Of a stretch of 64,000 bases of DNA, positions 13,606 to 21,766 are shown piece after piece; position 1 is the first letter of the stretch, and each line of letters begins with the position of its first letter. Both the position numbers and the translations under genes were made by a program. This DNA comes from Halobacteriales archaeon QS_4_69_225 (GTDB lineage Archaea > Halobacteriota > Halobacteria > Halobacteriales > Haloarculaceae): positions 124,001 through 188,000 of the forward strand of contig PXRL01000026.1 in the NCBI GenBank assembly GCA_003020965.1. The letters run 5' to 3'. The notes below the pieces were generated by a model. It did not search any database, was not told where the DNA came from, and worked only from the letters and a program-made list of their open reading frames with translations.

Positions 13606-14022
13606 TCAGCCCGCGGCGACGAGGCCGGCCACGAGCCAGAGACAGCCGCCGAGCAGCACCGCGAACCCGGCGAAGAGGACGACCCCGCTGCCGAGGGCGG
13701 TGCCGACCGCAACGAGCGCCCAGCCGGCGCCGCCGACGGCGTGGGCGATGCCGATCCGGCGCCGGCCCCGGCGGAGGTAGGCGGTACCGCCGAACGACAG
13801 CCCGACGGCGACGACGATCACCGACAGGAAGGCGACCGGCAGCCGCGTTCCGCCGACCGCCAGCGGGTCGACGAGCGGCTCCGCGAGAAAAAGTAGCCCC
13901 CCGACGCCGACCGCGAGACCGATGACCGCCGGCACCGGGTCGAACTCCGCGGCGTCGCCGTCGCCAGCCGGGCCGACGTCGGCGGGGCCGAACCGGAACT
14001 CGCGGTCGTCGTCGCCGCTCAC
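13606..14022 (-). CDS. uncharacterised membrane protein (GTG start)
   Basis: GTG start overlaps the stop of the upstream zinc-ribbon gene; four hydrophobic segments. Confidence 0.65.
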   Translation of the reverse strand: MSGDDDREFRFGPADVGPAGDGDAAEFDPVPAVIGLAVGVGGLLFLAEPLVDPLAVGGTRLPVAFLSVIVVAVGLSFGGTAYLRRGRRRIGIAHAVGGAGWALVAVGTALGSGVVLFAGFAVLLGGCLWLVAGLVAAG

Positions 14023-14522
14023 AGCGTCCGGTAGACGCCGTCGCTTTCGGTCACCTCGCCGGCCTGCCGGAGCTTCTCGAGGGCCCGCTCGACGTACGAC
14101 TCCGGGACGCCCGCCTCGGCGGCGTACTCGCGGACGGCGTCGGCGGTCGGCTCCTCGAGGTCGGCCAGCGCGTCGAGGACGACCTGTCGCCGGCTCCGGG
14201 AGCCGCCGCCTTCGGTCGCGCGCTCGCCGGCCGCCGTGGCGGCCTCGGCGTCCAGTCCGGCCGCCGAGAGGTACGCCTCGTCGCTCATGCCGACCTCGTC
14301 GGGGTCGATCTCCGCCGGGTCGACGAACTCCCCCTCGTCGGCCCGGTCGGCCAACATCGACCCCCGGACGCGGGCGGCCGCCTCGGAACTGTCCGTCTCG
14401 GCGAAGGCCTTCAGCTTCTCGAAGCGGTGTCGCGTCCGACAGCGGGGACACTGCGTCGTCTCCGGTCGCCCCTCGACGACCCAGAGGTGCTGACAGTCCG
14501 AGCAGCCCACGACCGAGTACAT
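14019..14522 (-). CDS. zinc-ribbon plus winged-helix protein (DUF5817-like, haloarchaeal)
   Basis: MYSVVGCSDCQHLWVVEGRPETTQCPRCRTRHRFEKLKAFAETD, C-terminal wHTH-like region. Confidence 0.8.
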   Translation of the reverse strand: MYSVVGCSDCQHLWVVEGRPETTQCPRCRTRHRFEKLKAFAETDSSEAAARVRGSMLADRADEGEFVDPAEIDPDEVGMSDEAYLSAAGLDAEAATAAGERATEGGGSRSRRQVVLDALADLEEPTADAVREYAAEAGVPESYVERALEKLRQAGEVTESDGVYRTL

Positions 14523-14649
14523 ACCGCCTCTCACGACGTCGCAGGACAAAAACCCAGGGCTGCCGCGGGCGGTTGTGTTTCGTTAAGCAATGCTGGCGGA
14601 AAATTCACCGCCGGGCGGGACTGGAAGGGGCGGGCTCTCGGCGAGCGAG

Positions 14650-14870
14650 ACGACGCAAGCAGCGAGGGACCTCCGGTCCCTCGGGCCGCTCGCGCGGCGC
14701 CGCCGCGCGAGGAGACCGCAGGACGCAGTCCGAGGACCGTGGTTCGAAAGACGGCTCCCCGAGCCGTCTTTCGTCATTGCGGGAAATCGAAGATTTCCCG
14801 CTTGCAGTCAGAACGCGATGCGTTCTGACGACATCACGAGAGAGCTTCGCTCTCTCGAACGACAGCGAGT
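14650..14870. repeat. hairpin array A: six tandem stem-loops, mostly 9-11 bp stems with 3-nt loops
   Basis: CGAGGGACC-TCC-GGTCCCTCG; CTCGCGCGGC-GCC-GCCGCGCGAG; GAAAGACGGCT-CCCCG-AGCCGTCTTTC; GCGGGAAATC-GAA-GATTTCCCGC; TCAGAACGC-GAT-GCGTTCTGA; CGAGAGAGC-TTC-GCTCTCTCG. All perfect. Confidence 0.9.
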
Positions 14871-14992
14871 CGCAGCCGCCGAGAGCGCAGGGGCTTCCGG
14901 GGTCTTGTCCACTCCGTTCACATCGTATTTACTCTTGACAGTAGCACCCTACAGGCCGAAACCCACAACTGGCCGGCGGCCGCTCTCGGGAT

Positions 14993-18457: not shown

Positions 18458-19396
18458 ATGCGCGTTATCGCCCACGGCGGCGCCGGCACCCCGCCCGAGG
18501 AACCGGCGGACAGACAGACGGCGCTCGAGGAGGCCACCGCGGCCGGCGCGGCGGCGGCGACGCCGACCGACGCCGTCGTCGTGACGCTGCGGGCCCTGGA
18601 GTCCGACCCTCAGTTCAACGCCGGCGTCGGCGGGGCCGTCCAGTCCGACGGCCACGTCCGAACCGACGCCGGCCTGATGACCGACGACCGCGCGGTCGGC
18701 GCCGTCGCCGGGATGCCCGGCGTCGAACACGCCGTCGACGTCGCCCGCGTCGTCAAGGAGCGAACGCCGCACGTCCTCGTGACGGGCGTCCACGCCGTCG
18801 ACCTGGCGGCGGCCGCCGGCGTCGAGGCCGGCGTCGACCTCCGGACCGACGAGACCGACCGACGGTGGGCCGACGTCGACGCCCCCGACGGCGACCCCCT
18901 GGCCCACGCCGACTGGGTGCGCGAGCGGTTCGGCGACCGTCTCGCGGCGGCGCCGGACACGGAGGCAGATTCGGAGGCCGAGACGGGGGCGAACGACGAC
19001 GACCATGACCACAATCACGACCACGACACCGTCGGCGCCGTCGCGACCGACGGCGACCGGGTTGCTACCGCCACCTCCACCGGCGGCCGGTGGCTGGCAC
19101 TGGCCGGCCGGGTCGGCGACGTCCCGCAGGTCGGCGCCGGCTTCTACTGTACGCCGGCCGGCGGTGCCTCGGCGACCGGCGCCGGCGAGGACATCGCCCG
19201 GACGACCCTCTCGCGGCGGGCGGTCGACCGCCTCGCCGACGGCGCGGACGCCCAGACGGCCGCCGAGGCCGCGATCGAGGAGTTCGGCGGCCTCGTCGAG
19301 GGGTCGGCTGGGGTGATCCTCATGACGCCGGACGGCGACGCCGGGGCGGCCTACAACAGCGAGGCGATGCAGACGGCTGTCGCCGGCGAGGTGTAG
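18458..19396 (+). CDS. isoaspartyl peptidase / L-asparaginase (Ntn hydrolase)
   Basis: MRVIAHGGAGTPPEEP, FNAGVGGAVQSDG, HDTVGAVATDGDRVATATSTGG (nucleophile Thr in GTVGAVA context). Confidence 0.9.
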   Translation: MRVIAHGGAGTPPEEPADRQTALEEATAAGAAAATPTDAVVVTLRALESDPQFNAGVGGAVQSDGHVRTDAGLMTDDRAVGAVAGMPGVEHAVDVARVVKERTPHVLVTGVHAVDLAAAAGVEAGVDLRTDETDRRWADVDAPDGDPLAHADWVRERFGDRLAAAPDTEADSEAETGANDDDHDHNHDHDTVGAVATDGDRVATATSTGGRWLALAGRVGDVPQVGAGFYCTPAGGASATGAGEDIARTTLSRRAVDRLADGADAQTAAEAAIEEFGGLVEGSAGVILMTPDGDAGAAYNSEAMQTAVAGEV

Positions 19397-21287: not shown

Positions 21288-21439
21288 GCCGGTACCCACG
21301 TCGGCGCCGGAATAAACGCTTTCGCCCCCTTCAGCGGCGGTGTTCAGATAGGCACCGGCGAGCCGGTCCGTTTCTGCCGGAGAACCAACCGAATCCTGGC
21401 GGACTGAAAGGGCGAGGCGCTGCGTGGCGGCTTCGCCGT

Positions 21440-21700
21440 GGTTCGAGAGAGCCGAAGCTCTCTCGTCATCACGAAAGGCGCGAAGCGCCTTTCGAACGAC
21501 CACGTTAGATGGCGGCCGGTGAAACCGGCCGCCCACTCGACGACCCTCGACGACGCAAGCCGCGAGGGAGCCGCAGGCTCCCTCGGCCCGCTCGCGCGGC
21601 AGCGCCGCGCGAGGACACCACAGGGAGCAACGCGACCGAGGAGCGTGGTTCGAAAGACTCGCCTCGAGCCGTGCGAGCGGGCCGAAGGCCCGCGAGCAGA
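21440..21700. repeat. hairpin array B: six stem-loops with 3-4 nt loops
   Basis: CGAGAGAGC-CGAA-GCTCTCTCG; CGAAAGGCGC-GAA-GCGCCTTTCG; GGCGGCCGGT-GAA-ACCGGCCGCC; CGAGGGAGCC-GCA-GGCTCCCTCG; CTCGCGCGGC-AGC-GCCGCGCGAG; GCGGGCC-GAA-GGCCCGC; spacers shared with array A. Confidence 0.9.
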
Positions 21701-21766
21701 AGTCGAGAGCGCCGAGGGCTTTCTCCTGCGTCCCGTTCTCCCAAGCCTCATCTGAATATCACTCTC

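Follow-up and report, generated by a model that had tools for sequence, protein, structure and literature searches.

The two hairpin arrays, A and B, of the window (the whole stretch of haloarchaeal DNA analyzed, 64,000 nucleotides long) are very probably two copies of a MITE family that fits mobilization in trans by an IS6-type transposase, with an interior derived from successive insertions of double-hairpin modules of ~50 to 65 nt each. The analysis supports two layers: the array would have been built by smaller double-hairpin repeats and would be spread by an IS6-type MITE. At the level of sequence comparison, the aligned copies document family membership, the ends and their target duplications, the presence and absence of modules, their nesting, one empty site of module 2, and the spread of that module through the class.

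Arrays A and B form one dispersed modular family

An earlier note on this DNA counted six hairpins in array B, five of them with 3-nt loops, and all six were recovered as perfect hairpins. The hairpins of arrays A and B referred to here are the following.

21444-21465, forward strand: array B, first hairpin of module 2, CGAGAGAGC/CGAA/GCTCTCTCG, with a 4-nt loop
21472-21494, forward strand: array B, second hairpin of module 2, CGAAAGGCGC/GAA/GCGCCTTTCG
21511-21533, forward strand: array B, hairpin h1, GGCGGCCGGT/GAA/ACCGGCCGCC, which pairs with h0 as the site 4 double hairpin
21563-21585, forward strand: array B, hairpin h2, CGAGGGAGCC/GCA/GGCTCCCTCG, of the site 1 double hairpin
21591-21613, forward strand: array B, hairpin h3, CTCGCGCGGC/AGC/GCCGCGCGAG, of the site 1 double hairpin
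21677-21693, forward strand: array B, hairpin h11, GCGGGCC/GAA/GGCCCGC, with a 7-bp stem
14663-14683, forward strand: array A, hairpin h2, CGAGGGACC/TCC/GGTCCCTCG allele
14689-14711, forward strand: array A, hairpin h3

The window contained 55 stems of at least 8 bp versus ~39 per Markov simulation, and 11 of the 55 fell in the two ~400-bp arrays, where ~0.25 was expected per array; the density of such stems in A and B was ~20 times that of the simulation. Folded as single strands, both regions were much more stable than shuffled DNA (A, z = -7.9; B, z = -7.1).

Spacers had been described as shared between the arrays. The alignment of A with B showed 82% identity over ~120 bp (E = 2e-26), and the shared spacers are therefore real rather than compositional. 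One supposed spacer, CGTGGTTCGAAAGAC, had to be reinterpreted: in B, an internal deletion has truncated a second module 2, and this sequence is what is left of it. The two stem variants noted in module 1, GAGGGACC/GGTCCCTC and GAGGGAGCC/GGCTCCCTC, are real and define a two-allele module throughout the family, with 13 and 9 copies in two genomes. Furthermore, BLAST searches of the 2.95-Mb host genome found ~80 pieces of B and 67 pieces of A elsewhere, which places A and B in one dispersed modular family, as first proposed.

Whole elements carry IS6-type ends

Element ends were defined by aligning ~60 copies. The elements extend past the array coordinates given at first.

21336-21763, forward strand: element B, MITE-like, with left end GGCGGTGTTCAGATAGG and right end CTCATCTGAATATCACT, aligned with other copies
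14571-14945, forward strand: element A, second subtype of the MITE family, with GTGTTTAGTTAAG-type ends

Element B occupies a co-directional gap that separates a HAD-hydrolase gene from the stop of an upstream gene; the gap that holds element A is divergent, with a DUF5817 gene on one side and a DHDPS-family gene on the other. The ends of the family are imperfectly inverted, reading GG(C/T)(G/A)GTGTTCAGATAAG ... CTTATCTGAACACTACC or, in A, the related GTGTTTAGTTAAG type. Target duplications of 8 bp are exact in five copies (L014, L015, L018, L033, and L035) and match at 7 of 8 positions in four others (L013, L020, L027, and L045). The duplication around element B has decayed to 5 of 8 matching positions, and none is left around element A, whose intact relatives L033 and L035 are among the copies with exact duplications.

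Five congeners (G002, G005, G006, G009, and G013) carry a 697-bp insertion sequence that is likewise bounded by GG(C/T)(G/A)GTGTTCAGATAAG ends and exact 8-bp duplications. Its transposase matches the IS6-family model NF033587 at 193 bits and passes PF13610. Because these ends and duplications are common to the IS6-family insertion sequence and the A/B-type elements, arrays A and B are assigned, on sequence features, to the MITEs with IS6-type ends; movement in trans by an IS6-family transposase would fit both the ends and the 8-bp duplications. In the window's own assembly, which is 89% complete, no IS6-type transposase (PF13610) was detected, and the sequence may be missing from it.

Short elements with IS6-type ends and duplications matching at 7 or 8 of 8 positions were also observed in the same genome, four of ~200 to 220 bp (L109, L110, L113, and L114) and one of 118 bp (L111).

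Interior modules occupy fixed sites and are nested

Aligned copies differ in which double hairpins they carry inside, each at its own fixed point of a skeleton that is free of modules in L045 and L163. The insertion points, marked by carets, are as follows.

Site 1: GACGCAAGC^[h2+h3]^ACTGCAGG
Site for module 2: GCG^[module 2]^CAGCGAG
Site for h10+h11: GCGGG^[h10+h11]^AGTCGAG
Site 4, for h0+h1: GGCGCT^[h0+h1]^CTCGG

Modules are also placed within hairpins and within other modules, and both arrays contain examples.

21439-21499, forward strand: array B, module 2, TGGTT-hairpin-TCATCA-hairpin-AACGA, interrupting the 3' arm of h0 (CGTGGCGGC TTC GCCG^CCACG)
21423-21504, forward strand: array B, h0 hairpin, CGTGG CGGC TTC GCCG ... 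CCACG, split by module 2
21646-21666, forward strand: array B, stump of the second module 2, which a deletion has joined to the 3' arm of h10 (compared with L009 to L013)
14740-14862, forward strand: array A, module 2 at site 2, its TCAT^CACGA linker interrupted by a nested double-hairpin unit
14779-14829, forward strand: array A, nested double hairpin h5+h6

Without module 2, h0 is uninterrupted in L014 and L018, and the TCAT^CACGA linker of module 2 can hold further double hairpins, as in A, L013, and L014. The interior would have been assembled by successive small double-hairpin insertions that leave no target duplication and sometimes enter another module or a palindrome; the whole MITE may then multiply the nested array.

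Two differences between genomes G000 and G012 were also observed. At one orthologous place (L100, 2018-2500, versus L034, 2463-2527), G012 has ~580 bp with two copies of module 2 around other sequence versus a single module in G000, an apparent repeat-mediated gain or loss. In addition, the flanks of two arrays are reciprocally exchanged between L028 and L040 (G000) and L090 and L103 (G012), which looks like recombination between arrays rearranging the chromosome; these are draft assemblies, and misjoining at the repeat is possible.

Module 2 is dispersed throughout the Halobacteria

The best-defined module, module 2 (TGGTT-hairpin-TCATCA-hairpin-AACGA), is ~60 nt long, usually 54 to 68 nt, with nested versions of 109 to 124 nt, and has the inverted ends GT(G/C)GTTCG/CGAACGAC. 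Among 133 parsed copies with distinct flanks, the linker was TCATCA in 125, the preceding base was G in 120, and the following base was C in 129. Scanning of named genomes recovered no fewer than 120 module 2 stretches across the Halobacteria, and the exact pattern occurred in 210 of 400 Halobacteria genomes, representing 67 of 86 genera, versus 0 for the reversed control. Matches were present in 35 records of haloarchaeal plasmids; the phages searched gave none.

One empty site was recovered, at L310, where GGGGTCAAG|CCCCGAGG adjoins tnpA and the IS200/IS605 palindrome reads CCTCGGGGTCAAGCCCCGAGG. The filled counterpart, L306, reads CCTCGGGGTCAAG[module]CCCCGAGG between flanks 83 to 92% identical to those of L310, and the junction is that of a clean module 2 insertion with no duplication. 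The comparison of copies identifies module 2 as a mobile unit whose insertion point falls between a G and a C and whose entry leaves no target duplication. It lies inside the IS200/IS605 palindrome CCTCGGGGTCAAG^CCCCGAGG at L306, L311, L183, and L280, the first two of which adjoin tnpA, and palindromic flanks of at least 7 bp were found in 11% of 65 independent module 2 contexts versus 2.4% of shuffled ones, a significant difference. Insertion into palindromes is a preference, not a rule; a module 2 always inserted into palindromes was ruled out, since only a minority of contexts are of this kind.

The nested unit h7+h8 was also considered as a class-wide element and was rejected, its exact pattern being present in only 5 of the 400 genomes. 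A related double hairpin, TTGCCAGA..TCTGGCAGGCAGCCAGAA..TTCTGGCAAC, whose exact pattern likewise occurred in 5 of 400 genomes, was observed near tnpA in several haloarchaea (L308, L302, L305, L289, and L316 to L320).

Stems stay paired while loops flip

Substitutions in the stems preserve pairing, as seen in the second hairpin of module 2 (hp2). Of 98 copies, which were extracted regardless of pairing and are related and so not fully independent, 89 were perfectly paired, with 32 distinct stems, and mispairs amounted to 1.1% versus 12.1% once arms had been swapped between copies. The triloop was GNA or TNC in 64 of 83 hp2 copies and a C-G pair closed the loop in 83 of 98, counts that include related copies and hence are not fully independent. 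GNA loops and their TNC complements had comparable frequencies (GAA, 65, and TTC, 47; GGA, 30, and TCC, 27). The loops had been said to vary freely, and they are indeed far more variable than the stems, but they are mostly GNA or TNC and are often mutual reverse complements.

The sequence d(C-GNA-G) forms an exceptionally stable DNA minihairpin, and GNA/TNC loops with C-G closure therefore favor a role as single-stranded DNA over a role as RNA. That the arrays encode a structured or regulatory RNA or a terminator, with hairpins conserved for transcript function, would agree with stem pairing that survives sequence change and with the strong folding z-scores, and yet it is very improbable. Array B had no Rfam match even at E values up to 1, the gap is co-directional in B and divergent in A, the flanks of the modules are unrelated across dozens of genera, the modules sit inside other mobile elements, and GNA and TNC triloops occur at comparable frequencies, which is not what an RNA transcribed from a single strand would show.

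The Rfam search returned one tRNA for the window, a tRNA-Ile at 1965-2039, which is the only one that Rfam supports; the tRNA-Gly (acc) at 13978-14069 and the tRNA-Ala (ggc) at 18824-18914 called by ARAGORN lie inside likely coding sequence and are probably false.

Over the host genome of the window and a sister genome, diversity at most hairpin positions was 0.37 to 0.64 in loops versus 0.00 to 0.08 in stems, the latter biased low since the stem-based search for copies allowed no more than two mismatches per arm. The hp2 test and the orthologous arrays are free of that bias. In orthologous arrays, 27% of loop sites, 13% of sites in unstructured array sequence, and 8% of stem sites differed (P = 0.001), so that loops change at about twice the rate of adjoining unstructured sequence, and stems changed more slowly than neighboring sequence (P = 0.002). 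Reverse-complement loops exceeded the shuffled null at seven hairpin positions in the host and sister genomes; the column-shuffle P values ignore shared ancestry, and weight is put on the number of positions. An AGC/GCT loop flip was also seen between orthologous arrays. Part of the loop change resembles minute hairpin inversion, from which the loop flips would arise.

Mutation mechanics alone, namely, template switching between arms and loop inversion that make hairpins and keep them perfect with neither selection nor module mobility, would account for loops that change fastest and flip to their reverse complements and for the slow change of stems. As a full explanation it is improbable, since it leaves unexplained the fixed TGGTT/AACGA ends and the constant TCATCA linker, as well as clean presence or absence at defined sites and class-wide dispersal. 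Loops and stems together form a natural record of DNA hairpin mutation, in which arms are kept paired and loops flip and drift.

Candidate mobilizers of the modules

With stems kept paired through sequence change and loops mostly GNA or TNC closed by C-G, the modules may act as single-stranded DNA hairpins, and their mobilizing enzyme may be one that processes hairpins of this kind. A HUH/Y1 transposase of the IS200/IS605 type is the leading, still tentative, candidate. Y1 transposases are present in 272 of 400 genomes of the class, and there was no association with the presence of the module (149 of 210 genomes with it versus 123 of 190 without it; P = 0.20). A tnpA gene lay within the fetched stretch at 4 of 120 module loci, a lower bound that rests on ~3 true TnpA sequences, since several of the query frames were antisense. 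A Y1 transposase bearing module hairpins as its own ends was sought and not seen; the module was found inserted in IS200/IS605 palindromes instead. The host genome, 89% complete as assembled, yielded no Y1 transposase. Since neither this enzyme nor an IS6-type transposase was detected in the host, both mobilizers would have been lost, missed, or located elsewhere.

It is possible, at somewhat below even chances, that the modules are archaeal REPINs, that is, inverted REP doublets moved via single-stranded DNA by a RAYT-like or IS200/IS605 Y1 transposase. The left half of module 2, GTGG-TT-stem 8 to 13-loop 3, fits the published REP motif (GTGG, 2 nt, fully paired stem of 8 to 13, loop of 3, and GC-rich foot; PMC6006769), the two halves are in inverted orientation, and the module enters IS200/IS605 end palindromes without target duplication. 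Against this stand the host genome with no detected Y1 transposase, the lack of co-occurrence of module and Y1 over the 400 genomes, the lack of a dedicated gene flanked by modules among the 120 loci, and the fact that RAYTs are reported from bacteria. More speculatively, and with rather more doubt, the modules could be a class-wide archaeal minimal transposon of single-stranded DNA hairpins, a counterpart of REPINs that prefers hairpins as targets, its own copies and IS200/IS605 end palindromes among them, and so builds recursive arrays, with a mover possibly new to such repeats.

Comparison with known systems

IS6-type MITEs, SMR repeats, and REPINs are already known. The A/B family shares with IS6-family MITEs the inverted ends and 8-bp duplications of a complete IS6 element and a length too short for a transposase; it differs in that its interior is a nest of double-hairpin modules rather than a deleted insertion sequence and in that the IS6 gene was not found in the 89%-complete assembly of its host.

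Organelle genomes contain double-hairpin elements and palindromic repeats, which are also paired hairpins, dispersed, intergenic, and inserted into one another. They are likened to the haloarchaeal modules by description and belong to another genetic compartment. Chloroplast DNA hairpins undergo minute inversions, in which the reverse complement replaces the loop and the stem stays; the haloarchaeal modules differ in having 3-nt loops and in belonging to an archaeal mobile repeat family.

The REP, REPIN, and BIME elements of bacteria are associated with RAYT transposases (PMC3116915, PMC3733652, and PMC6006769), and a REP is defined by a GTAG or GTGG tag 0 to 2 nt from a 7- to 20-bp stem with a 2- to 5-nt loop (PMC6006769). 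Module 2 resembles them in its short hairpin, in a GT(A/G)G-type tag separated from the stem by 2 nt, and in its arrangement as dispersed, intergenic inverted doublets; unlike them, it is archaeal, has a right half tagged GTCG, lacks a linked RAYT, and does not co-occur with Y1. In the literature searched, the double-hairpin grammar, the class-wide spread, the recursive nesting, and the loop behavior were not found.

The SMR-A small mobile repeats of Haloquadratum walsbyi (HqIRS42, HqIRS43, and HqIRS55; Dyall-Smith et al. 2011, PMC3119063) are short, with prominent inverted terminal repeats, many copies, no target duplication, and a reported length of 110 bp; they are inserted within near-terminal palindromes of IS605-type elements, and their mobilization was called "enigmatic" in 2011 (PMC3119063). 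By description, module 2 shares the short length, the many copies, the inverted ends, the lack of target duplication, and the insertion into IS605-type palindromes, and the reported length is near that of nested module 2 (109 to 124 nt), the plain form being 54 to 68 nt. To that description module 2 adds two covarying hairpins, GNA/TNC loops, the TCATCA linker, and spread throughout the class. With its sharp ends, target dinucleotide, and empty site, and its presence in half of the sampled genomes, the grammar of module 2 makes this "enigmatic" mobilization testable in cultivable hosts.
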